Below, piece after piece: positions 4,301-39,730 of a DNA stretch of 39,819 nucleotides. The notes beneath the pieces were generated by a model that had not been told where the DNA came from, made no database searches, and was given only the letters and a program-made list of their open reading frames with translations. The stretch comes from Planctomycetota bacterium (GTDB lineage Bacteria > Planctomycetota > B129-G9 > JAJDCN01), in assembly GCA_029260815.1 (NCBI GenBank), contig JAJDCN010000339.1, positions 1-39,819 of the forward strand. The letters run 5' to 3'. Position 1 is the stretch's first letter. Each line of letters opens with the position of its first letter. The translations under genes were made by a program, and so were the position numbers.

Positions 4301-6565
4301 CTCCGTTACCGCGTTCGAGTAGGTCGTGCCGGGGTCCTTGTGGACGTCGGAGATCTCCCAGAGCCGCCCGCGCTCGTCGTAGTCGTAGTTGCGCTCCTGG
4401 AGGAGTACGTCTGCGCTGTCGTAGCGGCGCAATCTCGTTACGCGCCCGTTCTTGTTGAGTGAGACTTCGGCGTAGTGGCCGATCGGGTCGGTGGCCTTCG
4501 TGCGTCGGTCGAAGAGGTCGTAGGTGTGGTCGGTGTCCTTGTCCCGGCCATTCGTCACGGTGATCAGATTGCCGTTGGCGTCGTAGGCAAACTCCGCCTC
4601 CGACGCCTCGGTCGCCGTCTCCCCGCGTGTGATCTTGCTGATGTAGTCTCGCTCATCGAAGTCCCACTTGACCTTGTTGCCTTCAGGCTTGGTGACGCGG
4701 ATGCGGTTACCACCCACGTCGTAGGCCAAGGTCGTCGTTCGTGTAGTCGAGACGTCGATCTCTTCGACGACCGTTAGGAGCTCGTCCTCGTCCGTGTACG
4801 TGAAGCTTGTCGTGATCCACGGATTGGCCGTGACCGTGTCGCCGTCCTCGTCCTTGTTCTGAATCTCGACCTTGGTCAGGTTGCCGTTGGCGTCGTACTC
4901 GTACTTCGTCTCGTCGGATAGGGGTGTGGGCGCTGTGCGCTTCGTCAGGCGCCGGAGGTTGTCCCATTGGAGGGAGGTGGCGTTGCCGCGCGCGTCCGTG
5001 ATCGACGTGATGTTGCCGGCAGAGTCGTAGGCAAACGAGGTCTCTAGGTCCAGTCCCGTCGAGTCCACCTCGATCTTCTCGAGCAGGCCCCAAGTCGAGC
5101 CGGTCGTCGCAATGTAGTGGTACTTGGTGACCTTCTCTTCCTCGTCGGTCACCTGGGTGATCTGCCCGTAGGTGTTGTAGGTGATGTCCTTGTCGGCTGT
5201 TTGCGTTGCGGGATCCGTCACCGTCGGATAGGCGATCTTCGTGACGTTGCCGTCGCTGTCTCTTGTGAAGCTTGTCTGGTCGCCCATGGGGTTCGTGTAC
5301 GTCACCATGAAGTTGCTGGTGTAGGTCCACGTGTGGACGATGTCCGATGCGTCGGTCGAGGCCGTGTCTGTCGTCTTGTGGCGCCGCTCAGTGAGGTTGT
5401 CGCTGCCGTCCCACGTGTAGTCGATGCGATTGCCGCGCGGGAACACCACGGTGACGACCTGGCCGCCAGAGTAGGTGTACTCCGTCGCGTACTTGGCGAC
5501 CGAGCTCACGTACATGTCGGTCTTCGTGATGTTGGCGCCAGTGTGATGGGCGCGGTGGATGTTGCCGTTGCGATCCGTGCGGTCGGTGCGACCGCTCACA
5601 AGCGTGTACTCAACGTCGGCGCCATCGATGGTCACCTTGTCGATCTTCGCCGTCGATCCGACCCAGGTGTACTCGTTGACCGTGTTGCCGCGCCCATCCT
5701 CGATGCTGGAGATTCGATCGGAGGCGTCGTAGGAGATCGTGGTCGTGATGCCGCTGACCTGCTGTGCGGTTGCGGGCGTGTCGATCGTCTCCAGGTTGCC
5801 GTTCGTGTCGTAGCCAAACTCCCACTTCTGACCAGAGGGGATCTCGATCTCGCTGAGGAAGCCGTCGGCGTTGTGGTCGAAGCTGAACGATCCCCCGCGT
5901 GTGTCCGTCAGGCCGGTGATCTGGTAGCTGCTGTTGTAGGTGAAGTCGAGTTCGTTGCCGTTGCGGTCGGTGTACTTGTCCGGCATGCCGTTGGCGTCGA
6001 AGAGCATCTCGGCGCCGTACTTGTCGGTCAGCTTGTAGATTCCCGAGCTAGGGGACGTCAGGGTGTGGTGCACGCTGCAGTCTTGTGTCGAGTAGTCCGT
6101 GCCGTCCCAGTCGTAGGTCACAACGAGACCAGAGGAGTCGCGCCAGTGAATCTGGTGCCCACCGTTTCCGTCGGGATCCTCGGGATCTAGCTCGTCGTAC
6201 TCGACGGTGTGTTCGAACGAGAGGATGAAGCCGTTGCCGACCTGTGTCATGCCGGATCGGTAGCTGCGCCACGAGAGGGAGATCGGGAAGTCTCCGCCGA
6301 CGCCCCGCAGGCGGCACAGGTCGTACGTGAACACGAGCTCGGTGGTGACCCAGTTCACGTTCTCGGCTGACCACAGCGCCGGCCGGGGGCACGGGGGGCA
6401 CCAGCAACCAGCACACTCCTGCTGGGGCGACGTGTTGCTCCAGAAGGGCGAGGAGTACGTGGTCGCTTCAGCGACACGGGGCGCGGGAACAAGCAGCGCG
6501 GCTACGCCCACGAGCACCGCAAGGACAACGACGAACGGACCATAGCGACGGATCTGGCGTGCCAT
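1382..6565 (-). CDS. RHS/YD-repeat polymorphic toxin with C-terminal WHH nuclease domain
   Basis: 1727 residues. I place the start at 6565 (MARQIRRYGPFVVVLAVL), which has GAGGGAG six bases upstream and begins a clear signal peptide ending near APRVAEA; the frame stays open further upstream but encodes Arg/Pro-rich junk. After a Cys-rich N-terminal stretch come dozens of YD repeats (patterns such as YDANGNLTKV and YDDADNITKTTD) that build a hollow shell in this family. The RHS core ends at about residue 1450 with the conserved GRFLQRDPLGY...DPFGL motif. The last 277 residues are the variable toxin tip: an Ala-rich linker, then TWHHVEDGETMLLLP and HDEARHTGG, the hallmarks of the WHH branch of HNH/Endo VII nucleases (W1689, H1690, H1691). 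The signal peptide argues for Sec export rather than type VI loading. The likely target is nucleic acid in competing cells. Confidence 0.93.
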   Translation of the reverse strand: MARQIRRYGPFVVVLAVLVGVAALLVPAPRVAEATTYSSPFWSNTSPQQECAGCWCPPCPRPALWSAENVNWVTTELVFTYDLCRLRGVGGDFPISLSWRSYRSGMTQVGNGFILSFEHTVEYDELDPEDPDGNGGHQIHWRDSSGLVVTYDWDGTDYSTQDCSVHHTLTSPSSGIYKLTDKYGAEMLFDANGMPDKYTDRNGNELDFTYNSSYQITGLTDTRGGSFSFDHNADGFLSEIEIPSGQKWEFGYDTNGNLETIDTPATAQQVSGITTTISYDASDRISSIEDGRGNTVNEYTWVGSTAKIDKVTIDGADVEYTLVSGRTDRTDRNGNIHRAHHTGANITKTDMYVSSVAKYATEYTYSGGQVVTVVFPRGNRIDYTWDGSDNLTERRHKTTDTASTDASDIVHTWTYTSNFMVTYTNPMGDQTSFTRDSDGNVTKIAYPTVTDPATQTADKDITYNTYGQITQVTDEEEKVTKYHYIATTGSTWGLLEKIEVDSTGLDLETSFAYDSAGNITSITDARGNATSLQWDNLRRLTKRTAPTPLSDETKYEYDANGNLTKVEIQNKDEDGDTVTANPWITTSFTYTDEDELLTVVEEIDVSTTRTTTLAYDVGGNRIRVTKPEGNKVKWDFDERDYISKITRGETATEASEAEFAYDANGNLITVTNGRDKDTDHTYDLFDRRTKATDPIGHYAEVSLNKNGRVTRLRRYDSADVLLQERNYDYDERGRLWEISDVHKDPGTTYSNAVTEVERFKTGHVKTITNARGKDTTYEYDNAWRRTKVTDALGNKTTWTLDKNGNPTAWSIEEVVGMTSVTHEYEAGYDELNRRTSYVEIDRNDSLNRLEVQYGYDSRGNLLWRVNAEGDPTRWTFDAAGRMTKKEVALATGTTIEDFTSAVVTEWGFDKNDRMTTHKDDAGNTSTYTFDALDRVTELKYPDLEKITYVYDDADNITKTTDAAGNVIDDVYDDNNQRTSRTVTRATGFLGTTSETFTYDGAGRMTKAEDNDYKVEFTYGVIGLSSGVYEEKQSYVGGTAYTKTVKKTYDAVGNVITELYPSGLDLDRTWNDIDRLSTVTDGTNTIASYDYTGTRVNRVTFQNGAKANVSYTGFRGEVERIHHQSSGAATLVDLQYAYDDNHDRLYERFGGAGSAGDAFDYDAARRLTTAWVGSTDVTAPSSNSYTKKVEYTLDDDGNRSSVKVTPYGQSATTTTYTDNNLNQYTAVGSYTYVHDKNGNLTDDGSQKYEYDYKNQIVRIKQASTTIAEYEYDALGRRVEKDDQTNVERYIHSGNETVAVYDGSNVLVREFVFGQVIDEVLMLKQADVLDFDSDANTTESTRSFYHRNALGSVMAITDMNEAVVVSYRYDPYGSVTITRNSTTQSSDPLGNPWMYTGRFHDEESGLEYYRSRYYSAAIGRFLQRDPLGYAPGPNLYQYVSSSPTNWTDPFGLDGDDPWWKKLLSMAKHVPGLLFEASVGRTFREDPMIQGYVRLGRAASPYVKAAGEAAVHSAEAAAKSAVTAAEAWADGDLAELGKVAGGGVWGALDQVTGGGLLPHLFTNDKTFSTAAAAGRGVAAAAELVGGGVTLAKALRHGKTASSIAAGARTATIPGSGTSPGLRLVNGRRPINYKFAGRRHPSGVYFTSEGFPHFRPFARARVRLRGLTGRNKTDAAKANAAAGLPCTPEGFTWHHVEDGETMLLLPKRIHDEARHTGGAAVLRERKKLKGK

Positions 6566-6845
6566 GAGCATCTCCCTCGCGCGCCACTGGGAAGGACTCT
6601 GGGCGCGACCAATGCTCCGGTTCTGCCTGAGGTGAGGGCCCAGCTTCAATCGCCGCGTACGAATGTAATTCAAATGAAAGACACGAGTCGGCCGTCTCCA
6701 AGGGGAGTCCGGCGTCCCTGTCGAGCGGCGGCCGCACCAGGGTTTCTCCCGACGGCGGGGCGTAGCGCATGTCCGCCCAGCGTCACGCTGGTTGTCAGGC
6801 CTGCACGAGGCACTACCCTGGTTGGACCTGTCGGGGAGACACGGA
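6566..6845. promoter_or_regulatory. Divergent control region between the RHS toxin and its putative regulator
   Basis: 280 bases separate the start of the minus-strand RHS gene from the plus-strand OmpR-like regulator. The stretch 6658-6682 is distinctly AT-rich against GC-rich surroundings (ATGTAATTCAAATGAAAGAC), as expected of a promoter or operator, but I cannot fit a clean -35/-10 pair. A purine-rich GGGGAG lies about 7 bases before the regulator start. Confidence 0.45.
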
Positions 6846-7550
6846 ATGAGCGGGGAGAGGATCCTCATAATCCATCGGCGTCAGCGCGTGCGTGATCGCA
6901 TCCGGCGCTACCTGAAGGCTGCGCCCGGCGGGCTCAGCGTGAATCGCCTTTCTGATGATGAGTTGGCGCTCTCCCGTCTCCAGGTCCTTCGTCCTCACGT
7001 AGTGGTGCTTGGCTGTCGGTTCGACAGCGACGTTGATTGTTGGCGTCTCTGTCGTTCGATCCGCAGGCGCCATCCCCGACGTGAGTTGGGCATCCTCGCA
7101 GTCGTCTCCTGCCTCGAGGACGGGTACGAGTCGCGCGCTCTACTTGAGGGGGCCGATCTCTGTCTCCATGCAGAGCGCCTGAGTCGGGACGTCGTGCAGA
7201 CGAATGTGGCAGGTCTCGTGCAGCGGGTCGGTCGGCGTCGGGACCGCCGCCTGCGTCTGGGCGCCCTGACTCTTGTTTCACAAGGACGGTGGATGCGGGT
7301 GCGGGGGCGCAAGGTGCAACTCACGCCAACGCAGTTCAGCGTCCTCTGGCGCCTCGCCCAGGCTCCTGAGCGGCTCCATTCGGCGCGGGCGGTCATTGGG
7401 TACGGTGACTCTGTGCCACCGGAGAAGGCTGAGCAACTGGCGTACATCCACATCCACAGGCTCCGTAAGCGCCTCGGAGAGGACTCAGGGCTGATCAGGA
7501 GCGTGAGGGGCATTGGCTACGGCCTAGACCTCAAGTGGCAGGCTGGCTAG
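6846..7550 (+). CDS. OmpR-type winged-helix regulator with degenerate receiver domain
   Basis: 234 residues; ATG 6846 with GGGGAG upstream. Residues 1-125 keep the receiver layout (RILIIHRRQ strand, VVVLG strand, ILAVVS strand) but the conserved acidic pair after strand 1 is missing, the phosphoacceptor Asp position reads Gly/Cys in VVVLGCRFDS, and the conserved Lys region reads LCLHAERLS. Phosphorylation-based switching is therefore unlikely. Residues 150-230 form the DNA-binding winged helix: VQLTPTQFSVLWRLAQ, a recognition-helix segment AYIHIHRLRKRLGED and the wing GLIRSVRGIGYGL. It is divergent to the RHS gene, so control of the toxin, perhaps as a constitutive or ligand-gated factor, is a reasonable inference. 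No histidine kinase gene is nearby. Confidence 0.85.
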   Translation: MSGERILIIHRRQRVRDRIRRYLKAAPGGLSVNRLSDDELALSRLQVLRPHVVVLGCRFDSDVDCWRLCRSIRRRHPRRELGILAVVSCLEDGYESRALLEGADLCLHAERLSRDVVQTNVAGLVQRVGRRRDRRLRLGALTLVSQGRWMRVRGRKVQLTPTQFSVLWRLAQAPERLHSARAVIGYGDSVPPEKAEQLAYIHIHRLRKRLGEDSGLIRSVRGIGYGLDLKWQAG

Positions 7551-8446: not shown

Positions 8447-8552
8447 GTGCAGGGGAGCATCAAGGCCGCCGCGCCTTGCTAGCGAGCCCGGGACACTTGG
8501 GCCATGTGCTTAGCCCTAGGTGCAGACGATGACGTCGTGAGGAGAGGTGGAC

Positions 8553-10310
8553 ATGCGGGTATCAGCCAAGAAGGAAGGCTTCTCTGTGCACGCAATCTCG
8601 GGCACTCGTGCGGTCATCTTGGCCATGAACGCCCGGGAAGACGCTCTTCAGGACTTCCTCGGGTTCGGGATCGGCATTCGTTCGCCAGGCGATGGCGCGA
8701 TTCGCTGGCTACGAGGGTTCAAGTGTTTCGCGACGTTGGAGCCCACTCCGACGCGCGGCCAGCGGTTCGAGACCGTCGAACATCCCATTCAAGGCTTTAT
8801 GTGGGGACACTACTGGGCAGACCCCGATCAGGAGTATCGATACGTCGTACGTCCGCTGTTCTTGCCAGCGAGCGGCAAGTTGGACGACCTCAGGCACGGC
8901 GCGGATCTTGAGGTGACGATTCGCACCGAGAAGGAGGACTCCGGTACGCACTCCATCTACTTCAATCGCGGCGCGATCGTGAGCCAGGCGTACGCGGAGA
9001 AGTTCCAGAATGACAACAACCTGACCGCCGCCGAGCTGAAGGCCGAACTCAACGACAAGGATGCTGAGAGGACCAAGTGGCTCTCGCGCGGCCTGCTGGA
9101 GGGGGCACTGGGCTTCATTGCACAGGCGAAGTCGAGTCGATTCTCGCTGCACTGCTGCTTCTACGAGCTGACGTACCCTCCCATTCTGAAGGCGCTTGCT
9201 GATGCGGCCGCGGCGGGCGCCGAGGTGCAGGTCACCTTCGACGCCGACCACTTCAAGCGCAGCCGTAACCGCCGCGAAGAGTCCGCGCAGGGGAAGCGCA
9301 ACCGCGAAGCGATTGAAGCGTTCAAGGGGCGGCCGCGCTTGCACTTCAAGGAGCGGATCCACTACATCTCGCTGACGCACAACAAGTTCATGGTGCTGCT
9401 GGACAATGGGCGGCCCGTGCAGGTCTGGACGGGCTCCACCAACATCACCCCCTCCGGCTTCTGTGGTCAGTCGAACACGGGTCACGTCGTCCGCAATGAG
9501 GCCGTCGCGAAGCAGTTTGAGGACTACTTCACCCTGCTGGCTCGTGACGAACAGCGTGAGGCCCTAAAGGTGTTCACTGGCGCGGCCTCGCCCAACCCTC
9601 CCGACAGTTTGCCCCCAAACAGCATCACGACCCTGTTCAGCCCTCGTCGTGGCGAGTCGATGATGGATTGGTACGGGGGGCGCGTTGAGGGCGCCAAGCA
9701 GACGGTCATCCTCACCTCGGCGTTCGGCGTGACCACGAAGCTGGCGAAGTACTTCGACAATGACCGTGACTACCTGCGCTACATCCTGATGGAGCAGAAG
9801 AGCCGTGGGGCTGGCGCGCAAGCGATGATCGAGCGCGACAAGGACACGCGGATCGTCCTTGGCCAGGGCCTTGGCTACACAGGCTCCATGGGAAACTGGC
9901 GGAAGGTGCCAGGCTTCAAGCTTGAGGAGTGGATGTGGCGCGAGCATCACTACCGCAGCTCCGGGCACGTGTTCTTCATCCACACCAAGTACATGGGCAT
10001 CGATGTGCTTACTGATGACCCGATCGTGTTCACCGGCTCGGCCAACTTCTCGCCGAACTCCCTCACATCCAACGACGAGAACATGCTCCTGATCCGAGGA
10101 GACACTGGCGTAGCGGACGTGTACCTGACGGAGTTCTTCCGGCTGTTGAACCACTTCTACTTCCGCCAGGTCGCGAACCGGAGGGCGAGGGACGGAAAGA
10201 GCGATTCCGGCGTGCGTTGGCTGGCGGAGGACGACAGCTGGGTGTGGGGCCACTATCAGCCCAGCTACTACCGATCAAAGCGCCGGGAGTTGTTTGGCGT
10301 GCCAGCCTAG
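8553..10310 (+). CDS. Phospholipase D superfamily protein with two HKD motifs
   Basis: 585 residues. ATG 8553 has AGGAGAGG 5 bases upstream; a GTG at 8547 is in frame but overlaps that site. Two PLD catalytic motifs are visible: H276-N-K278 followed by D284 and GSTN (294-297), and H477-T-K479 followed by D484 and GSANFS (495-500). PLD-family enzymes use the paired histidines to cleave phosphodiesters in lipids or nucleic acids. The N-terminal 180 residues form a separate domain I do not recognise. There is no signal peptide or membrane segment, so a cytoplasmic role is likely. In a mobile island next to an EEP remnant, a nuclease or phosphodiesterase used in defence is plausible, but a phospholipase is equally compatible with the motifs. 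Confidence 0.88.
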   Translation: MRVSAKKEGFSVHAISGTRAVILAMNAREDALQDFLGFGIGIRSPGDGAIRWLRGFKCFATLEPTPTRGQRFETVEHPIQGFMWGHYWADPDQEYRYVVRPLFLPASGKLDDLRHGADLEVTIRTEKEDSGTHSIYFNRGAIVSQAYAEKFQNDNNLTAAELKAELNDKDAERTKWLSRGLLEGALGFIAQAKSSRFSLHCCFYELTYPPILKALADAAAAGAEVQVTFDADHFKRSRNRREESAQGKRNREAIEAFKGRPRLHFKERIHYISLTHNKFMVLLDNGRPVQVWTGSTNITPSGFCGQSNTGHVVRNEAVAKQFEDYFTLLARDEQREALKVFTGAASPNPPDSLPPNSITTLFSPRRGESMMDWYGGRVEGAKQTVILTSAFGVTTKLAKYFDNDRDYLRYILMEQKSRGAGAQAMIERDKDTRIVLGQGLGYTGSMGNWRKVPGFKLEEWMWREHHYRSSGHVFFIHTKYMGIDVLTDDPIVFTGSANFSPNSLTSNDENMLLIRGDTGVADVYLTEFFRLLNHFYFRQVANRRARDGKSDSGVRWLAEDDSWVWGHYQPSYYRSKRRELFGVPA

Positions 10311-13010: not shown

Positions 13011-13994
13011 ATGTCGGCTGCGACCACCATGAGTAACTTCGTGGCCTCTAGGCCGAACTTGACCGGTCCGTTGTACTGGCTTGGTGCGGCAAGCTTTGAA
13101 GAGCGGTGCCTGGGCAGTGCGCGAGTACTCGCGGAATTCGGCGGGTCACTCGAAGCAGGGCTCATTGTCGACTACGCAACAAAGATAGAGCCGGGCGGCG
13201 CTGGACAGGAGCTTAGAGCCAAGTACCGGAAGGCACTGTTTGACAGCTTGCCTGCGCGGGACCTGCCTCTTCAAGCGTATCGCTTCGGTCCGATGATCGG
13301 GGCACTGGAGTCTATTGAGAGGTCATGGGGTGGCAATCGCGCCACTACGCTGGTTGTCGATGCCACATGCTTCACCAAGATCCACTCGGTAGCACTCGGG
13401 TACTGGCTTGCGACCCAGCGTTGCGTCAAGGATGTCCTGGTCGCGTACACTCGTCCAATTGAGTACGGCACAGAGGTAACGAACGTGCAGGCGCGTGGAA
13501 GGTGGGTAGAGACCATCGTTGCACCTCTGGGTTTCGACCCACAGCTCACGAGCGGCGAAACGACAGGACTACTCCTTCTAGGTCACGAGGGTAGCAGGTT
13601 GCGGCTCGCGGTTGATGCGCTTGAGCCCGACGGTGGTCTGGCAATCCTCGCAGGCGCTGAGGACAGCGCCCTCACTCGGATCTCGGAGTGGAAGAACGGG
13701 TGGTTGCTTGGGCAAGCTGCGGAGGATGGGATCGACCTTGAGACGGTCGACTTCTTCTCTGCGCAGGCAATGCGCAAGTCGGTCTCAGGCGTCGCCGCGC
13801 AGGCACGGGCCGCGAACGCTCGGATGGTCATCTATCCCTTCGGACCGAAGCCGCACGTGATTGCGGCGTCGTTCTACGCCGCAGTCCTGGCACCGCGGCG
13901 ATCCTGGATCAGCTACCCCGTACCCAAGTCGTACTCGTTGACGTACACGTCAGGGGTGGGGCTGACGTACTGGGCGAGCATTCGACTCAGTTAG
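13011..13994 (+). CDS. Unrecognised Rossmann-like partner of the ATPase-TIR/NDT protein
   Basis: 327 residues; ATG 13011 directly abuts the upstream TAG, so translation is probably coupled. A second ATG at 13029 is possible but lacks a better ribosome-binding site. The first half alternates strands and helices: LYWLGAASFEERCLG (21-35), LIVDYATKI (51-59), TTLVVDATCFTKIH (112-125) and DVLVAYTRPIEYG (141-153). The last 50 residues hold a compact motif run, YPFGPKPHV then SYPVPKSYSLTY. The SFEERCLG, DATCFTK and AYTRPIEY segments look like a conserved ligand or nucleotide pocket of a CARF/Rossmann type, but I cannot assign a named family. Strict adjacency to the ATPase implies joint function, perhaps as the regulatory or effector half of a defence pair. 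Confidence 0.75.
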   Translation: MSAATTMSNFVASRPNLTGPLYWLGAASFEERCLGSARVLAEFGGSLEAGLIVDYATKIEPGGAGQELRAKYRKALFDSLPARDLPLQAYRFGPMIGALESIERSWGGNRATTLVVDATCFTKIHSVALGYWLATQRCVKDVLVAYTRPIEYGTEVTNVQARGRWVETIVAPLGFDPQLTSGETTGLLLLGHEGSRLRLAVDALEPDGGLAILAGAEDSALTRISEWKNGWLLGQAAEDGIDLETVDFFSAQAMRKSVSGVAAQARAANARMVIYPFGPKPHVIAASFYAAVLAPRRSWISYPVPKSYSLTYTSGVGLTYWASIRLS

Positions 13995-17400: not shown

Positions 17401-18046
17401 CCGACGGTTGCTTGCTGAGTACCTCCGGCGGTGGCGGACCGGTGGAGGGCTGCCGAAGATCGCTAGCTCGGGCCTGTTTCGATCCTCCTGGCCTGATCTC
17501 GGCAAGTCGAAGCCGTTCGTCGAAGAGGTCGATCGGTGTCTTCTGGACGAGCGCCCGTCCAATCTGAAGTTCGCGCTCGCGATGATTCGGTCCCTTGCAG
17601 AGGCGGAGGCCTATCCCGAGTCGCGCGAGGTGCGCGATGCGGTGAACCGTCTCCTCTCCCTGCAAGACGCCCCTGCCGACTTCCCACGACATGTGGAGGA
17701 CGACTTCGTACAGGTGCTCGGGGAGCGAGAGGGAGTCGATGCGACGGCCGTCAAGGCGGTGCTGCGTCGTTTCGCGTGGTCGGGATCGAGTGACGAGTCC
17801 TACATCGACGTCGAGGACTTCATCAAGGGCCACGCCGATCGCATGACCGCAGCCGTCGAGTTGGTGCCGGAGCTTCTCGACACGGGGACCGAACGAAGTG
17901 TAGAGGCAGCCCTCGAGGTTTTGAACATCGTCGGTCCGAAGGCCAGGCACCTGCTGCCGCGACTTCGTGGGCTGTCGAGGAGGGCCCTTCCCACGTGGCG
18001 CGAACGGCTCCAAGATGCCATCTTGTCGATTGAGGAGGACGACTAG
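14450..18046 (+). CDS. Exported HExxH metallopeptidase-like protein with HEAT repeats
   Basis: 1198 residues from GTG 14450; no strong ribosome-binding site. The N-terminus (MGKRYAVIALMLLAGIGAWL) is a signal peptide or anchor. Residues 30-260 form a gluzincin-like domain: H159-E160-L-A-H163 zinc motif in LAHELAHVWQDQ, and E193 in VVEGTAEF as likely third ligand. After a linker domain (residues 320-500), the C-terminal 600 residues are alpha-helical HEAT-like repeats (for example LRRFALGAIAERR, VRAVAVRAAEAMAK, VRVMALQAIQFMG). Family knowledge suggests secreted or periplasmic proteolysis with HEAT repeats as binding scaffold. It opens a run of exported proteins on the plus strand (14450-25191). 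Substrate unknown. A pseudo-enzyme is possible, but all zinc ligands seem present. Confidence 0.85.
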   Translation: MGKRYAVIALMLLAGIGAWLWPMAEDEDPWAFSIDVPYTDETNPFTEERLRARLARITPLVEEVVGQAIRTDELRITIADGFVAAHRELQEAYPHLLDPTGPDYAFVPLFLTYLNLQEQWASLLGRYVPQAKTIEFYPFMFEAIEPEDLDALIDVILAHELAHVWQDQRFGAFEHEGVEDTTETALARAAVVEGTAEFVSREVAKRLDAVSSFDLVASKRDEQTEKRTGTPTQRAIARWQRWAYGEGLRFVETVHAELGAPATWQRLFGAMPSSVWSIEHPKAWAERPGTPSADLDAWASRLLSILEAHRPRFDSQRKWGHRPLIREDVVERLGSAGLSMVSGPWERLQGGVLFAGTPKRGPLAGTSFLLRAWRFPTDGDALEARAALEGAFARLGPRAWAGKDVEQTLGATRVRVGPNGAVVRSSLVFDDAPLHAHEGAWGLHGHGSMVFEVIGWRDGIGPALLDILDAAVRAVTDGEAIDLAIGGVATAESPYVKLGELRGGSSAGPAPLGAETLAALRDEWIARVLAGNTGERALLQWLQAEPRPPAAWMTAVGPAAGEEELEGVERGRLLLAALLHEDAELRRFALGAIAERRCRLPPWSADVVARIALLTGDEDPWVRAVAVRAAEAMAKQKPLGEARIDALASDASPAVRASLAVSRGVLKTRRRSVLAQLAADSHLAVKRAADAEDPDQGKGTGAFVDRVLEISRRKDGEAPAPREDGPVDPTAAFNVMFEAMLTNSMGKNQEELERRIRRFLVEGDASVRVMALQAIQFMGGARQRFLPELVRAFDVALPRHGASMTLCKGGLDLTPARRHLLAMVAHPWWRVHVLRAIAANELDLPEDVSKQVTDWMGSRDLLLRAASALLVLRLDADDAKPLKVLEGAWAALPSDWRVQALEAVRTHRPGSSAAARLEQRALYSGFREERNVVFDAHRDGTFDEPYVRALLDGMARSSPEVVEEYWSHILDKAWDPGDEELQLIRRLLAEYLRRWRTGGGLPKIASSGLFRSSWPDLGKSKPFVEEVDRCLLDERPSNLKFALAMIRSLAEAEAYPESREVRDAVNRLLSLQDAPADFPRHVEDDFVQVLGEREGVDATAVKAVLRRFAWSGSSDESYIDVEDFIKGHADRMTAAVELVPELLDTGTERSVEAALEVLNIVGPKARHLLPRLRGLSRRALPTWRERLQDAILSIEEDD

Positions 18047-18200
18047 CCCACTGCGTGCACCCTGGCCGCGTCATGGAACTCGTCCAGTCTCTCGTCGAGA
18101 CCAAGGTCTAGCATCCGGCCCGGTACGCAGGTGCGGGTCCTTCCGGGTGGACGCGAAGTCGTCACGCTGGCAGAGTCCTATCGTCGGTGGAGTGTGGACC

Positions 18201-21200
18201 GTGCAGAGAGTTGCCGCAGCGATCGCCCCTCTTGTCATTGCAGCATGCGTTGTGTGCCTGCCCTGCGTCATGGCGGAGGACGACGCATCCGGTGGGGCGC
18301 GCTCCTCGCTCGTCCACATTCGCGTCATGGACGGAACGGTGCCCGCGCGTGCACAAGTCGAGGTGCGACGGCTCTCAGACGTAGCCCTACCGAGAATCGG
18401 GTTGGAGCCTGTGACGGGCGCCCCGGTGGTGAAGTCGCAGAGCGACGCGCGCGGGCTCTGTGAGTTGAAGGGGTTGCTTGCGGGCCGGTACCAGATCCGA
18501 GCGGCCCTTGAGGGGCATGCGCCGATCTACGCAACGATCCGCGTGCCTAGCGCGGACGCACGGGTCGAGCTTCGAATGAGCAGACCAAGCGGAGACCACA
18601 AGCTGAGGGGGCGTGTGGTATGGGACGACGGCAAGCCCTTTGAGGGCGTCGTCGAACTGACCACAAGCGTGTGGTTCTCGACGGCCGACGCTTGGTGCGA
18701 CGGGGCCAGCTACGCCAAGACAGCGAAGGACGGTTCCTTCCAGTTCGAGGGATTGGCCGCCGGGGAGTGCTTCGTCAACGTCTCCCAGCCTGGGCGTTTC
18801 CGGCACCCTCATGGCTGGGCCCTGCGCATTCCAATGGATGGTCCCTGCTTGCTCGTCGCAGACGACGAGCTTCGCCGACGCACGCTGCGAGTGGTGCAGG
18901 CGTCGGACGACGCGCCGGTAGCGCGCGCCAATACCACCTCGCTGCAGTGGGGATGGCCGTTCGCCAAGGGCGAGACGGACTCCACCGGGCTAGTCACCGT
19001 CTACGGTGCGTACGGCGAGGCTACCGTTTCGATCTCGAAGCCCGGCCTTGAGGCTGCACGGGTGAACCTTGGGGAGTCCGCCGCGGAGCTGAAGGTCGCG
19101 CTTGGGCGCGGCGGGACAGTCGAGGGTGCGGTTCAGGGCGACGATGGCACGCCTGTGAAGGGCGTCCAAGTGGCGGCTGTTCGGGAGGATCCGGACGCAG
19201 GTGACGGGCAGATTCTGACCGCGACCACGAATGATGAGGGGCGCTACCACATCAAAGGCTTGGCCGAGGGCCCCTGGCTCTTCGTCGCCGTGGGGGCGGG
19301 CCAGATGAGCGTCGATCAGCGCCTTTGGACCGAGGCGGGTCGCGCGGCCAGCGTCCTCGAAGTACCCAAGGGCAAGACCCTGAAGCACGCCATGGTCGTG
19401 CGTCCGGCAGGCACGCTTGAGGTGCGTGTGACGGACGCGGATGGCAAGCCGGTCAGGGACTGCGCAGTCAGGGTGGAGCCCAAGCAGGCGGGCACGTACT
19501 ACGGCTTCTGGAGCCAGGCGCCCTTGGGAGAACTGCTCTCCGGCCGCACCGATGCCAAGGGGGTTGCTCGCTTCGACACGTTGGTTCCGGGGCTTGCCTA
19601 CTGGATCGAGGCTCAGGTCCTGCATACGTCTCAGCGTGTGGCCTCCACACCGCTGAGCGCGTCCAAGACCAGTGTGGCTTCCGTCACCGTCCCTGCAGTG
19701 AAGTCCCTGGAGGTCAGGGCCGTCGATGCCGAGAGCGGAGCACCCGTCGCGGGTGCCTTGGTCACGGTGTACGAGAGCCGGTCCGGCCTCGACACGCGTT
19801 GGAGCACGGACAGGGAGGGCCGAGCGCATATCCAGATTCGGACCGACGAGGACCTCCTGGTGGAGTGCGAGAAGCTCGGCTACTTCGATCCCGAGCCTGT
19901 GGAGCTGCTTGAGGGCAAGCCGGCCGTCGTGCGCCTCAAGGCGAGCAGTTCGATCAAGGGCCGCGTGCTCGCGCCTGTGGGCATGGGCGCGAGGCTCGTG
20001 CACGTGAAGACCGACCTGGGCTTACCGGCGGGTCAAGGATCCCCCGGCCGATCCTCGGCGTGCAACGTGCCGGCCGGGCAGACATTCGAGCTCCTTGGGC
20101 TGCAGCGCGGCTCGTACAAGGTCGTGGCCGAGATCTCATGGCGGGGGAGGAAGTACAGAGCGGAGGCGCTAGCGGAGACAGGCGCTGTGAACGTGCGCCT
20201 TACGCTCTCTCCTCACAAGGAGGACCCAGGGCTGCGTGTTCGCGTGCTCGACCCAAGCGGGAAGCCCGTTCCTCACGCGAGCGCGTCGCTGTACGCCCAA
20301 GGACCGAGCCTGAACCTCGCGCCGGAAACGGGGAAGGTCACGGAGGGCCTGTACCGGGCCAAGATCCCCGAAGGGACCACGCGACTCTGGCTCGAGTTCC
20401 ACAGTGCACGCGACGAGGCCGGAAGGAGCCTTGACCTCGGACCGTTCTTTGTCGGGCCCATCGCACCCTCCGAAGTGCCCGCGCAGGTGAGTCTTGCTCC
20501 AGGTCTGCGGCTCGCCGGACGCGTCGTGGACGGGCAGGGCAAGGGTGTCCCCGGCGTTCGGCTATCCGCACACCTCATGCGTGAGGGGCACGAACGGGTC
20601 GGGTACGGATACGCCGGGCCCGCCCATGCCGAAGCGACGACGAGCGAAAGCGGCGGCTACGTGTTCGAGGGGCTCGGCAAGTGGCGCTATCAGATCGAGG
20701 TGCAGAAGGCCGAGGGGTTCTCAGCCGCGGACCCCTTGCAGGGCGTGAAGCCGGGCGCTCGCGTACCCGACCTGTCTATCCGAAGGGCCATCCGCGTGAA
20801 GCTGCAAGTCGTCGACTCAGGGAGCAAGCCCGTGCGCGGAGCGCGGGTCGTACTCTGGTGGAACACGAGGCAGGGCTTCCCGCGGGGGCACCGCTCCGCG
20901 ATGCAAGCGCATCTGACGGACGCTGGGGGAGCGATCTCCTTCGACGACCTTCATCCCAAGCGAACGTACCGCATGCAGATCTCTGCACCCGACCGTCGGC
21001 CTGGACTGCGTGGGATCACGATCGAGCGCTGGACGCCGAAGGATCAGACGTTTCGGTTCGAGCCGGCACTGGAGATCAGCGGGACGGTGAAGGACCAAAC
21101 CGGGCGCCCTCTCGAGGGCATCCGAGTCGGTCGGCTCACCGGGCCGCGTCCCTGGTTTGTAGCGAGAACGGATGCAGAGGGGCGGTACCGCTTCACCGAC

Positions 21201-21839
21201 CTGCGCGCCGGGGAGTACGAGATCGCGCTGCATGACAACCTGGGGCGGACGGCCCAACCGCTCCCCAAGAGAACAGTCGCAGCCGGGGCGAACTCCGTCG
21301 ACTTCAAGATCGACACGCGGCGCGTGCTCCGCCTTCGGCTGATTCCCACCGAGGTCTCGTCCCAGCCTGTCTCGCTCATCCTGGCCGTGAGGGGGCCTGG
21401 CTCCTCGCCTAGGCCTGTGTCGGTCGATAGGCAGGGGATCTCCTACGTGCTGGACCTGGATCCTGCTCAGGAGTACACGCTGTTCAGTGGCCCCACCCGG
21501 GAGGGCCGGTGCTTCTACAGGACTGGCGTGAAGCCCGGGGGGGATGTGCTTGAGGTAAAGCGGAGCAAGGGCGTGGTCGCGCAGGGGCGGCTTGAGCTCC
21601 CCGAGGGGACGCACTTCGTCGGCCTCGTCGGGCGGGCGACGATGGGACCCTTCGCTGCACCGGTCAAGGTCTCTGCCGGAGGCGCCTGGATTCTTGCCGG
21701 AGTGCCTGCAGGCACCACGTGGCAGGTCCAGATCACGGGCATCGGCGGCGGGCGGCACTACTCCGCTCGGGGGAAGGTCACGGCTGGTGCGAAGGACGCT
21801 CCCAGGCTGGTCATGAAGGAGCGGCGGCCTGGCAAGTAG
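18201..21839 (+). CDS. Exported protein with multiple carboxypeptidase-regulatory-like domains
   Basis: 1212 residues from GTG 18201, which has GGTGGAG 8 bases upstream; an in-frame GTG at 18192 is the alternative. The frame is open further upstream but encodes Arg-rich shadow sequence. The N-terminus (VQRVAAAIAPLVIAACVVCL, cleavage near MAEDD) is a signal peptide. The remainder is a string of beta-sandwich repeats of the CarboxypepD_reg type, each with a motif like RVVDGQGKGVPGVRLSA, VRVTDADGKPVRDCAV or GRVVWDDGKPFEGVVEL followed by a GxYxFEGL turn. Such repeats act as structural or carbohydrate/protein-binding modules and carry no peptidase activity of their own. The gene lies 154 bp after the HEAT metallopeptidase gene. 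Very large secreted proteins of this kind are common in Planctomycetota. Confidence 0.88.
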   Translation: MQRVAAAIAPLVIAACVVCLPCVMAEDDASGGARSSLVHIRVMDGTVPARAQVEVRRLSDVALPRIGLEPVTGAPVVKSQSDARGLCELKGLLAGRYQIRAALEGHAPIYATIRVPSADARVELRMSRPSGDHKLRGRVVWDDGKPFEGVVELTTSVWFSTADAWCDGASYAKTAKDGSFQFEGLAAGECFVNVSQPGRFRHPHGWALRIPMDGPCLLVADDELRRRTLRVVQASDDAPVARANTTSLQWGWPFAKGETDSTGLVTVYGAYGEATVSISKPGLEAARVNLGESAAELKVALGRGGTVEGAVQGDDGTPVKGVQVAAVREDPDAGDGQILTATTNDEGRYHIKGLAEGPWLFVAVGAGQMSVDQRLWTEAGRAASVLEVPKGKTLKHAMVVRPAGTLEVRVTDADGKPVRDCAVRVEPKQAGTYYGFWSQAPLGELLSGRTDAKGVARFDTLVPGLAYWIEAQVLHTSQRVASTPLSASKTSVASVTVPAVKSLEVRAVDAESGAPVAGALVTVYESRSGLDTRWSTDREGRAHIQIRTDEDLLVECEKLGYFDPEPVELLEGKPAVVRLKASSSIKGRVLAPVGMGARLVHVKTDLGLPAGQGSPGRSSACNVPAGQTFELLGLQRGSYKVVAEISWRGRKYRAEALAETGAVNVRLTLSPHKEDPGLRVRVLDPSGKPVPHASASLYAQGPSLNLAPETGKVTEGLYRAKIPEGTTRLWLEFHSARDEAGRSLDLGPFFVGPIAPSEVPAQVSLAPGLRLAGRVVDGQGKGVPGVRLSAHLMREGHERVGYGYAGPAHAEATTSESGGYVFEGLGKWRYQIEVQKAEGFSAADPLQGVKPGARVPDLSIRRAIRVKLQVVDSGSKPVRGARVVLWWNTRQGFPRGHRSAMQAHLTDAGGAISFDDLHPKRTYRMQISAPDRRPGLRGITIERWTPKDQTFRFEPALEISGTVKDQTGRPLEGIRVGRLTGPRPWFVARTDAEGRYRFTDLRAGEYEIALHDNLGRTAQPLPKRTVAAGANSVDFKIDTRRVLRLRLIPTEVSSQPVSLILAVRGPGSSPRPVSVDRQGISYVLDLDPAQEYTLFSGPTREGRCFYRTGVKPGGDVLEVKRSKGVVAQGRLELPEGTHFVGLVGRATMGPFAAPVKVSAGGAWILAGVPAGTTWQVQITGIGGGRHYSARGKVTAGAKDAPRLVMKERRPGK

Positions 21840-21925
21840 GAGGCTGGGGCTCGGGCCCTCTGGGATCACGCTGCAACTTCGAGCTGCAGGCATCAAGCAC
21901 TCCGCGGCCGAGCCTGATGAGTTAG

Positions 21926-21946
21926 CCCCCGAGACGTGCACGGGGG
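21926..21946 (+). terminator. GC hairpin between the repeat protein and the protease gene
   Basis: CCCCCG (21926-21931) pairs with CGGGGG (21941-21946) around a 9-base loop, about 90 bases after the upstream stop codon. A short GGTGTTG follows instead of a T-run, so the terminator call is tentative. Confidence 0.4.
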
Positions 21947-21952
21947 GGTGTT

Positions 21953-21969
21953 GACTGCATGGTGCAGTC
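21953..21969 (+). promoter_or_regulatory. Inverted repeat over the first ATG of the protease gene
   Basis: GACTGCA (21953-21959) and TGCAGTC (21963-21969) form a perfect 7-bp stem with a 3-base loop that begins within the ATG at 21959. It could be an operator, an RNA hairpin that hides this start, or a hint that the true start is the downstream ATG at 21986. Confidence 0.35.
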
Positions 21970-23560
21970 TTCCGATGATCGCAGCATGTGGAGATTCCCG
22001 GCTCTGTTGACGGTGCTGCTTGGTGTTCTGCCCATCTGCAGCGACGCGGTCGCGGATGAAGCCGACGCTCCGAAGAAGCTGAGTCTCGCGGCCCTGCACA
22101 AGCGCACTCTTCCTTCTGTGGTCCAGGTCATGACCGATCGAGGGAGCGGAACGGGATTCTTCGTCAGCTCGGACGGGGCGGTCCTCACGAACTGTCACGT
22201 TGTTGCCGGAGCCAAGCGTATCGAGATCGCACTGCACGATGGGAAGAAGGTGAAGTGCGAGGGCGTCCTGGCGCTCGATCAGGACCACGACTTGGCTCTG
22301 CTGAGCACAGCCGGGAAGGGGTATCCAGCTCTGAAGCTGAAGGGATCACCACAGCCGCCCCCCGGGACTCCCATCGCAGTCATCGGCAATCCGAAGGGAC
22401 TGAGAGGATCGGTGACCGAGGGAATCGTCTCGGCCAACCGCACCCTCGGGGGCGTGAGGGTTGTCCAGATCACGGCTGCCATCTCGCCCGGATCGAGTGG
22501 ATCCCCGGTAATCGACATGCAGGGCGCTGTCGTTGGGATCGCTGTGTACTCGCTGCGGGGAGGGCAGTCACTCAACTTCGCTGTACCGGCGAGCTTCGGC
22601 GCCACCCTGGACACCGAAGGCGACCTCAAGCCGATATCAGTGGTTGCCGATCTCGCGCCCAGCAGCAGATTCTTCGGGTCGAAGGTCGCCACGGCGATGA
22701 TCGCTGCAGAGCGCGCCAAGGACTTCGGCAAGATGATGAAGCTCGGTCTAAAGGCAACGCGAGCCTACGAGGATGACGCGAATGCCTGGTGGGGACTGGG
22801 GTTGGCTTACGCTCATCTCAAGTTCACCGCCGAGGCAGTGAGCGCGTTCAAGAAGGCCGTAGCACTGGACTCTGAGCACGTCGCCGCATGGCATGCGCTG
22901 GGGCTTGAACTCATGCTGGCCAAGAAGCCGCGCCAGGCGCTTGCCGTAATGAAGCAGGTCACACGCTTGGAACCCCGCGAGCGCAAGTACTGGTCGCTCA
23001 TGGCTGTCCTCCAGATCGACTTGGATGATCTCGACGGAGCGCTCGCTAGCACCAAGAAGGCAATCTCCCGCGGCGGAACGGCCGGGGACTTCCTACGCTT
23101 GGCTCGCCTGCAATACTCCCGCAAGGCCTACGATGACGTAGTTGTCGCGTTGCGGGAGGTACGGCGACTAGATCCCGATGACGCCGATGTGTGGCTGATG
23201 TTCTCGCAGGTGCATCTGGCCAGGGGGCGGCACGACTGGGCAGTGCGAGCGTACAAGGGCTACTTGAAGATGAAGCCCAAGGATGCTGATGTCTGGAGCC
23301 GGCTTGGGCAGAGCTACTTGGAGCTGAAGCGCAGGCCAGAGGCCCAGGCCGCGTTCGCACGTGCTGCGACGCTTGATCCAAGCAACTCGCTGGCCTGGAT
23401 GGCTCTCGTGAAGCTCCACTTGCGGCGTGGCGACTACCCGCGAGCCTATGGTGCAGTGAGGCGCCTCTACAAGGTCGACTACGATGCTGCCGTGGTAGCG
23501 CATGACCTAGTTGACTCGCGGGCTCCCAGAATCATCCGACGCCTATACGGCATTCGGTGA
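21959..23560 (+). CDS. Exported trypsin-like serine protease with TPR repeats
   Basis: 533 residues from ATG 21959; the in-frame ATG at 21986 begins directly at the signal peptide (MWRFPALLTVLLGVLPI). Residues 50-215 are a DegP/HtrA-like trypsin domain with a complete triad: H80 in LTNCHVVAG, D111 in DQDHDLALL and S180 in SPGSSGSPVID. There is no PDZ domain; instead residues 230-520 are tetratricopeptide repeats (WWGLGLAYAHLKFTAEAV, WSRLGQSYLELKRRPEA and others), which normally bind proteins. A protease-TPR fusion of this layout is frequent in Planctomycetota. It is likely periplasmic or surface-exposed and follows the repeat-protein gene by 119 bp, perhaps in the same transcription unit. Substrates unknown. 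Confidence 0.9.
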   Translation: MVQSSDDRSMWRFPALLTVLLGVLPICSDAVADEADAPKKLSLAALHKRTLPSVVQVMTDRGSGTGFFVSSDGAVLTNCHVVAGAKRIEIALHDGKKVKCEGVLALDQDHDLALLSTAGKGYPALKLKGSPQPPPGTPIAVIGNPKGLRGSVTEGIVSANRTLGGVRVVQITAAISPGSSGSPVIDMQGAVVGIAVYSLRGGQSLNFAVPASFGATLDTEGDLKPISVVADLAPSSRFFGSKVATAMIAAERAKDFGKMMKLGLKATRAYEDDANAWWGLGLAYAHLKFTAEAVSAFKKAVALDSEHVAAWHALGLELMLAKKPRQALAVMKQVTRLEPRERKYWSLMAVLQIDLDDLDGALASTKKAISRGGTAGDFLRLARLQYSRKAYDDVVVALREVRRLDPDDADVWLMFSQVHLARGRHDWAVRAYKGYLKMKPKDADVWSRLGQSYLELKRRPEAQAAFARAATLDPSNSLAWMALVKLHLRRGDYPRAYGAVRRLYKVDYDAAVVAHDLVDSRAPRIIRRLYGIR

Positions 23561-37658: not shown

Positions 37659-37925
37659 ATGTCTCAAGAGGATCGCTTCCTCGTCCTCAGCGAAGCTGCT
37701 GAAGATCTCGAACTCTCAGTCGCCGAGGTACGTCGCCTCGTCGAAGAGGGTGAACTCGAAGGCCATCGCGACGAGCCCACCGGCCCGTTGTTGATCACCA
37801 AGGAAAGCGTCGATGACTACGCCGATGAGGCGGATGACGACGCTGACGAGGATGCCTTCGACCGCGGCTACAACGAAGGTCACGCCGATGGCCTCGCTGA
37901 AGCCGACCACCAAGAGGACGACTAG
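37659..37925 (+). CDS. Small helix-turn-helix protein with acidic tail (excisionase-like)
   Basis: 88 residues, ATG 37659 after GGAG at good spacing. The first 50 residues have the MerR/HTH_17 layout of excisionases: FLVLSEAAEDLELSVAEVRR, then GELEGHRDEPTGPLLI and an ESVDDYADE helix. The last 35 residues are very acidic (DEADDDADEDAF), with a repeated GYNEGHADGLAEADH stretch, unusual for a pure DNA binder; it may recruit or inhibit a partner. A strong terminator follows 14 bases after the stop codon, so it is transcribed separately from the second HTH gene and integrase. Likely role: regulation or directionality of recombination. Confidence 0.8.
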   Translation: MSQEDRFLVLSEAAEDLELSVAEVRRLVEEGELEGHRDEPTGPLLITKESVDDYADEADDDADEDAFDRGYNEGHADGLAEADHQEDD

Positions 37926-37938
37926 TCGTCCTCTCGTC

Positions 37939-37965
37939 GGGGCGGCCCTCTCTGAGGGCCGCCCC
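37939..37965 (+). terminator. Terminator after the first HTH gene
   Basis: A perfect 12-bp stem, GGGGCGGCCCTC (37939-37950) with GAGGGCCGCCCC (37954-37965), and a 3-base loop, followed by GGTTCTG. The strongest terminator-like structure in the window; it separates the 88-aa gene from the 74-aa gene and integrase. Confidence 0.85.
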
Positions 37966-37983
37966 GGTTCTGAGAGGCCAAGC

Positions 37984-38208
37984 ATGGCCAAGGAAGAACC
38001 CCAGAAGGCAGGCGTCGCAGGTCTGCCGCAGCTCCTGAAGGTCGCCGAGGTGTCGACGATCTTGAACGTCGATCAGCGAACGCTGCGCGCCTGGATCGCA
38101 GCCCGGAAGATCGGCGTCGTGCGCCTGTCTAGCCGCTGCCTGCGCATTCCGTCAGGCGAGCTCGAGCGTTTCATCGAAGAGCGTCTCGATGGGCCGAAGA
38201 CGCGCTGA
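37984..38208 (+). CDS. Excisionase-like helix-turn-helix protein
   Basis: 74 residues from ATG 37984 with GAGAGG upstream; the frame is open earlier but through the terminator. The body is a complete HTH_17 domain: LPQLLKVAEVSTILNVDQRT, LRAWIAARKIGVVRL, then SRCLRIPSGELERFIEERLD. Excisionases of this type bind near attachment sites, bend DNA and steer the integrase toward excision, and often regulate the int promoter. It ends 70 bases before the integrase start, so the two are likely co-transcribed. The only other candidate for the excisionase is the acidic-tailed gene just upstream. Confidence 0.88.
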   Translation: MAKEEPQKAGVAGLPQLLKVAEVSTILNVDQRTLRAWIAARKIGVVRLSSRCLRIPSGELERFIEERLDGPKTR

Positions 38209-38278: not shown

Positions 38279-39724
38279 ATGCGTGTGTTTCGCCCTACAT
38301 GGAAGCGGGACGGCAAGACCCGCGAGGGAACCGTCTACTGGGTCTCAGCGACGGTCAACGGTTCGCGTCTGCGCAAGACGACCGGCTGCCGCGACAAGCG
38401 CGCAGCCGAAGAGCGTGCGCGCGAGATCGTCCGTCATGCCGAGCGCAAGGCTGCCGGACTGATCGATCCGTGGCAGGAGCAGCAAGAGCGTCCGCTTGCC
38501 GAGCACGTGGCGGACTTCGAAACCACGCTTCGGGCCCGAAACCTCTGCGCTCAGCACATCGCCGATCGCACGAGCTGCCTCCAGAAGTTCGTAGACACAT
38601 CGAAGGCGAGACGGCTCTCTGACCTCGATGAGGTGAAGGCGAGCCGTTGGTTGGAGCAGGAACGCCTCTCGGGCCTCGCCGCGCGCACCGTGAACCGTCG
38701 CTACCAGGCCTTGCGTCAGTTCGGCCGTTGGCTGACGAAGACCAAGCGCGTTGCGTCCGATCCGTTCGAGGGGCTCTGCCCGCTCAACGAGGCGGCCGAT
38801 CGGCGCCACGTGCGGCGGGCGCTCAATGCGGACGAGTTGTCCCGCCTGCTGGAAGCTGCGGAGCGCAGGCCGCTTGAGAATGCGCGAGCGCAGCGTACGA
38901 CCTGCGGGGTGACGCCGGTCGAAGAAGCCCGCCTGAAGGCGCTCGGAGCCTCCAGGGCACTGCTCTACGACCTTGCCGCCGGCACGGGGCTGCGCAAGGG
39001 AGAGCTCAAGCGCTGCTGCTGGCGCGACCTCGACTTCGAGCGACGCTGGGTCACGGTGCCTGCCGCCTCGGCCAAGTCGCGCAAGCTGCAGGGTGTGCCG
39101 CTGCGCCAGGATCTCGTCATCAGGTTGCAGGCGCATCGTCCGAAGGACGCGGTGGGGGGCGACCTCGTCTTCCCGGGCGCGTCGTTCCCGTCGCTGCGCG
39201 CATTCAAGCGCGACCTCGTCGCCGCGGGGCTGGCCCTGGTCGAGCGCCGGACGTTCGATGAGAGCGGTGAGCGCTACAAACAGCCGCGCGAGATCTTCGA
39301 CACGGAAGACGACTCGGGCCGGCGCATCGACTTCCACTCGCTGCGCTACACCTTCGTCACGAGGCTTGCCCAGGCTGGCGTGCACCCGCGCGCCGCGCAG
39401 GAGCTCGCACGCCACGCCAAGATCGAAACCACGATGGAGATCTACACGGACCTGAGTCTGTTGGATCTTCACGGCGCGGTGGAGCAAGCCGCCGGGCCGG
39501 ATCTGCTTGGTCACATGCTTGGTCAAAAACCTGCCAGCACAACCGACAACGCTTCATCACGTCGCACCAAGCGCGTTCGGCGGTGGGCACGCAAGGCGGC
39601 GCGCAAACGCGCAACGAATCGGCCCCCGGCGCGAGAAGTGGGGAGGGAAGAAGTGGTGGGCGTTACTGGACTCGAACCAGTGACCCCCAGCTTGTCGAGC
39701 TGGTGCTCTAGCCAACTGAGCTAA
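38279..39724 (+). CDS. int: Tyrosine recombinase / integrase of the element
   Basis: 481 residues; ATG 38279 with TTGGAGG 6 bases upstream, preferred over an open extension to 38189. The N-terminus has an arm-binding-like basic domain (VFRPTWKRDGKTREGTVYWV), residues 80-170 a SAM-like core-binding domain (LAEHVADFETTLRARNL), then the catalytic domain. Visible catalytic residues: R239 in GTGLRKGELKR, H353 and R356 in FHSLRYTF, H379 in ELARHAKIETT and nucleophile Y389 in MEIYTD. It catalyses strand exchange between attachment sites at the tRNA gene. The C-terminal 20-odd residues (VTGLEPVTPSLSSWCSSQLS) are translated from the att repeat and antisense tRNA, and would be replaced after excision by sequence from the left end. 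It is the only integrase in the window. Confidence 0.96.
   Translation: MRVFRPTWKRDGKTREGTVYWVSATVNGSRLRKTTGCRDKRAAEERAREIVRHAERKAAGLIDPWQEQQERPLAEHVADFETTLRARNLCAQHIADRTSCLQKFVDTSKARRLSDLDEVKASRWLEQERLSGLAARTVNRRYQALRQFGRWLTKTKRVASDPFEGLCPLNEAADRRHVRRALNADELSRLLEAAERRPLENARAQRTTCGVTPVEEARLKALGASRALLYDLAAGTGLRKGELKRCCWRDLDFERRWVTVPAASAKSRKLQGVPLRQDLVIRLQAHRPKDAVGGDLVFPGASFPSLRAFKRDLVAAGLALVERRTFDESGERYKQPREIFDTEDDSGRRIDFHSLRYTFVTRLAQAGVHPRAAQELARHAKIETTMEIYTDLSLLDLHGAVEQAAGPDLLGHMLGQKPASTTDNASSRRTKRVRRWARKAARKRATNRPPAREVGREEVVGVTGLEPVTPSLSSWCSSQLS
39652..39701. repeat. Right attachment repeat inside the tRNA-Val gene
   Basis: Identical over 50 bases to 91-140. It covers the tRNA from the anticodon stem to the 3' CCA, plus two bases beyond. 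It also encodes the integrase C-terminus. The flanking base on each side differs from the left copy, defining the repeat exactly; near-identity (GAAG) continues just outside on the integrase side. Confidence 0.93.
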
Positions 39725-39730
39725 ACGCCC
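39654..39730 (-). tRNA. tRNA-Val (anticodon GAC)
   Basis: 77 bases including an encoded CCA. Acceptor stem GGGCGTT/AACGCCC, D-stem GCTC/GAGC, anticodon stem CCAGC/GCTGG, 5-base variable loop, T-arm ACTGG-TTCGAGT-CCAGT all pair perfectly. The anticodon loop reads TCGACAA, giving GAC (valine). Position 33 is C instead of the near-universal U. The 3' part is supplied by the integrated element's attachment site and the gene remains complete. The integrase gene overlaps it on the opposite strand. Confidence 0.95.

Follow-up and report, generated by a model that had tools for sequence, protein, structure and literature searches.

A Planctomycetota tRNA-Val island whose integrase gene is predicted to lose a conserved C-terminal tail upon integration

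The analyzed stretch of DNA, hereafter the window, is an entire contig of 39,819 bp (G000:C267) from a fragmented genome of 352 contigs, which by its looks is a metagenome-assembled genome (MAG). The named relatives of the window integrase are found mostly in Planctomycetota MAGs. An exact 50-bp direct repeat (91–140 and 39652–39701) corresponds to the 3′ end of tRNA-Val (gac), and the tRNA gene is intact at the right end only. An intact tRNA-Val gene together with a displaced 3′ fragment typically marks an island that has integrated into a tRNA gene; with the integrase located between the two, the window meets the criteria for a tRNA-targeting genomic island of the Islander type. The features of the locus are as follows:

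91–140, no strand: left copy of the att core (attL), the displaced tRNA-Val 3′ fragment (exact 50-bp repeat)
141–358, plus strand: conserved integrase tail, residues 475–546 of the 546-aa form, in frame with int only in the excised circle
189–219, plus strand: putative arm-type sites in the tail coding region, in the same orientation as those at 39496–39526, which they match
37813–38208, plus strand: small HTH_17 protein, directly upstream of int (Pfam HTH_17, E 3.1e-10)
38279–39724, plus strand: tyrosine integrase (int), integrated form, 481 aa (Pfam Phage_integrase PF00589, E 4.6e-19)
39496–39526, plus strand: putative arm-type sites inside int, two TGCTTGGTCA units 12 bp apart, matching 189–219
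39652–39701, no strand: right copy of the att core (attR), the 3′ part of tRNA-Val, crossed in frame by int (exact 50-bp repeat)
39654–39730, minus strand: tRNA-Val (gac), intact, the integration target rebuilt by the element (ARAGORN)

The integrase gene starts with an ATG at 38279. The residues R239, H353, R356, H379, and Y389 (Tyr codon at 39443–39445), which occupy conserved alignment columns, fulfil the criteria for a tyrosine integrase (catalytic R, H-x-x-R, H, and Tyr). The HTH_17 protein may be a candidate excisionase, a role inferred by analogy with the Myxococcus phage Mx8, in which uoi has the same position. The cargo of the island was located at 1382–6868 (minus strand), 8547–10310, 13011–13994, and 17967–23560, and included an Rhs-repeat protein with a C-terminal WHH/colicin-type DNase domain, a PLD protein, a CARF-like protein, a carboxypeptidase-regulatory-repeat protein, and a trypsin-TPR protein. 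No phage or conjugation families were detected among the large ORFs of the window that were scanned. The contig begins exactly 140 bases ahead of the first element-specific base (141), as a de Bruijn assembler with k = 141 would leave it if two continuations existed for the flank plus core; the sampled population may also have contained empty sites or other insertions. At the right end, the distance differs from this 140-base pattern.

The excised circle was represented by an in silico join of position 39701 to position 141. This junction is a prediction without sequencing behind it; neither a circular junction nor an empty site was seen. According to the original prediction, the integrase frame enters the attachment repeat in phase, with a codon starting at 39653, terminates within the antisense tRNA at residue 481, and in the circle extends to position 358 as a protein of 546 residues. 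The analysis bore out all of these points. The repeat copies are exact and their offset of 39561 equals 0 mod 3, the integrated gene ends with a TAA at 39722–39724 inside the antisense tRNA-Val, and the joined frame stays open up to the stop codon ending at 358. A stop or frameshift at the predicted junction was looked for and is absent in the window element. The claimed replacement of about 23 terminal residues for about 88 held with respect to the change of the C-terminus; the numbers did not, because they were counted from codon 459, and residues 459–474 are encoded by the core and are identical in both forms. Residues 1–474 are common to the two forms and are followed either by 7 chromosome-coded residues (WCSSQLS), with the stop codon supplied by the tRNA-Val gene region, or by 72 element-coded residues. 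All catalytic residues remain in the integrated 481-aa form. Thus, a difference in the C-terminus between the integrated and excised states is strongly supported. Because the tail gained on integration is not conserved, the event is better viewed as a conserved tail being lost than as one functional tail being exchanged for another.

When the window is considered alone, the 72-codon tail could be a product of chance: shuffled left arms matched the length of the tail frame in 16% of cases (P = 0.16), and another frame after the core is open for 108 codons. Given the G+C content of the region, a long frame after the core is not surprising, and the significance therefore comes from the relatives and not from the window. 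In 30 of 40 Planctomycetota integrase loci, window included, the frame extends into the 3′ end of an oppositely oriented tRNA gene, and among these 30 it meets the tRNA in all three tRNA phases. A left att copy was found upstream for 18 tRNA-reading elements, which together with the window formed a paired set of 19; the 18 islands are approximately 6 to 45 kb in length and represent nine tRNA types, and their circles were joined in silico. The elements f3 and f4, whose integrases stop well before the core, were excluded from the statistics. In the 19 elements, the int frame after the core had a median length of 67 codons, compared with 8.5 in the other two frames (Mann–Whitney p = 9e-6) and with a shuffled expectation of 28 (Wilcoxon p = 5e-5).

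The tail is not required by every member of the superfamily, since some related integrases end before any tRNA and have no tail. No recognizable tail was found in any frame in e13, e14, and g19. At another locus (L144, G385:C111), two closely similar tandem integrases have a common 51-bp tRNA-Met core, which is not followed by a tail in any of the frames; this may be a variant whose tail was lost. Another integrase of the window's host (L025, 1180–4008, G000:C36) reads through an entire antisense tRNA-Pro and remains open into an apparent host nadC-like gene, as a frame of 942 aa.

The expectation that the left-end frame would be conserved in sister elements was met, both by tail motifs and by substitution patterns. 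The motif LA.IV.AWP.LP..IR.AM..LV, which defines the first tail family, is common to 13 paired elements, whose islands occupy different tRNA genes; all 13 carry it in the int frame, and no other frame contained it. In a leave-one-out HMM test of the first twelve elements, eleven scored 19 to 54 bits, and e58 was weak at 7 bits. Three further islands were found tail first and their integrases paired afterwards; all three were in frame, with exact cores of 44–67 bp. Of the 392 genomes of the phylum that were searched, 94 contained the first-family motif, as a rule within short orphan frames, and where an antisense T-loop was found upstream of it, the frame was usually open through the T-loop. 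In a tandem array, a single uninterrupted frame of 390 aa encodes the catalytic domain of the integrase, the antisense-tRNA core, and the tail; the fused gene thus occurs naturally wherever a core is followed by a second left arm. The host genome of the window contains eight first-family motif sites (G000:C324, C113, C122 (two), C193, C19, C26, and C232), and many such islands or their remnants may have passed through it. First-family tails are also present at L251 and L254 of a MAG labelled Actinomycetes (CSMAG_2756) and were absent from the 12 other searched genomes not labelled Planctomycetota; the tails of CSMAG_2756 may reflect a transfer or a mislabelled MAG.

The tail of the window, with its conserved motif at 236–337, belongs to a second family (LA..LL..AETA.DP.PLI.AARALL), which was detected in 12 of the 294 Planctomycetota genomes searched, one of them the host genome of the window. 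Tails of this family usually lie just downstream of an antisense-tRNA peptide and in frame with it; in the window, the tail motif comes directly after attL and shares the int frame across the core. Among the paired elements, g6 has the integrase closest in sequence to that of the window (55% identical); this element is inserted at tRNA-Met and carries a second-family tail, which aligned with that of the window with a score of 65, compared with a maximum of 54 in 2000 shuffles. In g6, however, a TGA interrupts the int frame within the core, and an ATG in the same frame comes after it; the tail of g6 may thus be a separate product, or this element may be in decay. The e64 tail was only weakly supported as a member of the second family (not by pairwise shuffles; HMM E 0.006). 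A second left end in the host genome (L230, G000:C58:28357-28458) has a window-type tail in frame with the antisense-tRNA peptide TGLEPAT. Homology between the two tail families was not shown (hhalign probability 1.2%).

Searches beyond these loci were largely negative. The 72-aa tail of the window had no convincing relatives in viral contigs or in the 59 nearest genomes. The tail alignment was too divergent for a pattern scan of the viral contigs, and neither tail is covered by a model in Pfam or NCBIfam. Viral contigs also contained no close relatives of the window integrase and gave no match to the one circle-form integrase searched against them. No natural circular genome of the group was seen in phage and plasmid records, which contained only distant integrases (<32% identity among the matches listed). 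No published description of these tails was found in open-licence full texts.

Comparison of the window tail with the closest tail (G244:C20) gave a dN/dS of 0.375 in the int frame, or 0.33 without the repeat, and values of 1.2 and 0.89 in the other two frames. For a close pair of tails within one genome (G244:C65 and C53), dN/dS was 0.19 in the int frame versus 0.88 and 2.2. Since the ratio is well below 1 only in the int frame, these sequence comparisons indicate that the tail is kept by purifying selection as a protein. An AlphaFold model of the 92-aa left-end frame was poor (mean pLDDT 55.6) and too weak for a fold search; it placed low-confidence helices at residues 33–47, 52–68, and 71–86, and the tail is probably helical.

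Repeats resembling integrase arm sites are also present at the locus. The segments 39496–39526 and 189–219 aligned with a score of 40, whereas the maximum was 34 in 500 and 28 in 300 shuffles. In 15 of 19 elements, including the window, a direct repeat within the frame flanks the core before and after it, at p < 0.05 versus shuffles; the repeat often consists of two units approximately 12 bp apart and lies approximately 105–200 bp before the core and 25–90 bp after it. In position and symmetry the paired repeats fit arm-type integrase sites, an assignment inferred without binding data. If they are such sites, the stretch after the core would be both an arm of attP and a protein-coding sequence.

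The closest known parallel is Mx8. Its attP likewise lies inside int, the gene crosses a core resembling an antisense T-arm (peptide STGLEPV in the GenBank record), and a small gene, the excisionase gene uoi, is located just upstream (order uoi-int in the record). As in the window, a long C-terminus gives way to a short one on integration and the catalytic domain is kept: 112 C-terminal residues are exchanged for 13, and the modified integrase is less active. The window meets the criteria of this type, with attP in the int frame, a frame open to a downstream stop in the predicted circle, and an altered C-terminus next to a retained catalytic domain. The two integrases have no significant sequence similarity (BLASTP E 0.33), and for this reason the window integrase, which works like that of Mx8 insofar as the lower activity of its integrated form can be inferred, was not assigned as a close relative. 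Moreover, Mx8 is a single phage, whereas the Planctomycetota islands form a large family in which two tail motifs are conserved; a similar test gave no paired arm repeats in Mx8. The authors of Islander have pointed out that the Mx8 and SSV integrases extend across attP. In the archaeal suicidal integrases of the SSV1, pTN3, and pT26-2 type, attP is also inside int and integration splits the gene; however, the N-terminal part is thereby severed from the catalytic domain, and those truncated enzymes that have been tested lack activity. The window integrase does not meet this SSV-type criterion, as the whole catalytic domain is left and the C-terminal tail alone is removed. A review has described self-disrupting recombinases as exclusively archaeal. 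In the Dehalococcoides ssrA islands, the dsiB recombinase frame crosses the att site into the target RNA gene, and, according to its authors, the circular form might be needed for full function; DsiB, however, is a serine recombinase for which no conserved tail was shown. Streptococcal ICEs in rumA have attR inside the integrase gene but encode a serine integrase and use a protein-coding target. Finally, in the integration-dependent immunity of mycobacteriophage BPs, attP lies in a gene and integration shortens a regulatory protein, but the gene encodes a repressor instead of an integrase, and its long form is degraded through an ssrA-like tag.

Taken with these precedents, we consider it quite probable that attP lies inside int, that the circle yields a full-length enzyme, and that integration truncates this enzyme and lowers its activity so that the element settles; the effect on activity is inferred, and none was measured. 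In the circle, int would read through the antisense tRNA 3′ core into the conserved tail, and the resulting 546-aa enzyme would recombine attP with the tRNA gene, thereby removing its own tail. Integration would cut int at the core, leaving the tail as an orphan frame at the left end. The chromosomal gene would then end inside the rebuilt tRNA gene as a 481-aa form with its catalytic residues and a few unconserved terminal residues, dictated by the tRNA gene and the sequence beyond it. The full-length form would act best on attP and attB, and the truncated form would be less active, keeping the element integrated; for excision, either the upstream HTH protein would have to act as an excisionase or a tandem or incoming copy would have to provide the full-length enzyme. 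The lower activity of the truncated form is the weakest step, expected only by analogy with the modified integrase of Mx8, and the direction of control is taken from Mx8, whose integrase has no significant similarity to that of the window. A control role for the change of the C-terminus, proposed in the original prediction, is supported only by this analogy and by tail conservation, without activity data. A broader version is put forward tentatively, as possible rather than probable: self-truncation would be the main directionality switch of a large, mostly uncharacterized class of Planctomycetota islands, the tail would be needed for efficient integration, only tandem or incoming copies would re-supply the full-length enzyme, and orphan tails would be both a record and a reservoir.

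Other explanations of the left-end frame were weighed against this one. A frame open by chance, in a G+C-rich region without stops and behind an antisense T-arm open in all frames, would suit the window-only statistics and the 108-codon frame, but it is hardly tenable given motifs conserved across many tRNA genes, their int-frame position in all 13 motif-bearing survey pairs and all three tail-first pairs, and dN/dS values well below 1 solely in that frame. At the family level, the conserved in-frame motifs and dN/dS refute it. It also seems improbable that the left end is conserved only as DNA, that is, as a second attP arm with integrase sites and a by-product frame. Although most elements have matching repeats approximately 25–90 bp past the core, coding for similar peptides on both sides (LLGHML, LAPMLAP, and LTGPLTG), the conserved motif of the protein is encoded downstream of the repeats, the DNA there varies while the protein is kept, and the ratio remains low once the repeat is removed. 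Most likely, both functions, as arm DNA and as protein, are present in this stretch. The TGA and following ATG of g6 would be natural if the tail were a separate small left-end protein with its own start in or after the core, its agreement with the int frame being historical. We hold this to be very unlikely, as no stop intervenes in the 13 motif-bearing and three tail-first pairs, the agreement holds although int meets the tRNA in all three phases, and the tandem array provides a natural fusion.

A less remote alternative, still unlikely in our judgment, reverses the direction of control: the truncated form would be the more stable or active one, and the tail would be an inhibitory element or degradation tag limiting the circle form. 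The tagged long form of the BPs repressor provides a precedent. However, the tails end in varied residues without an ssrA-like tag, their conserved part is an internal, predicted-helical motif that better fits a structural module, and Mx8, the closer analogy, goes the opposite way. A tail that limits the circle form is not excluded.

The favored reading, a full-length integrase in the circle and a truncated one in the chromosome, concerns an arrangement already known in kind from Mx8, the serine integrases of the streptococcal rumA ICEs, and DsiB. What is new is its breadth within one phylum, the two conserved tail families, the selection on the tails, and the arm-like repeats in frame. It explains why many integrases of the group end in antisense-tRNA peptides such as TGLEPVT, and it means that integrases read from such integrated islands are truncated versions of the gene of the circle. 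The orphan tail, in turn, is a precise marker of island left ends. The statement that self-disrupting recombinases are exclusively archaeal would need amending, and the arrangement offers a simple, testable explanation of how an integrated island might keep itself in place.
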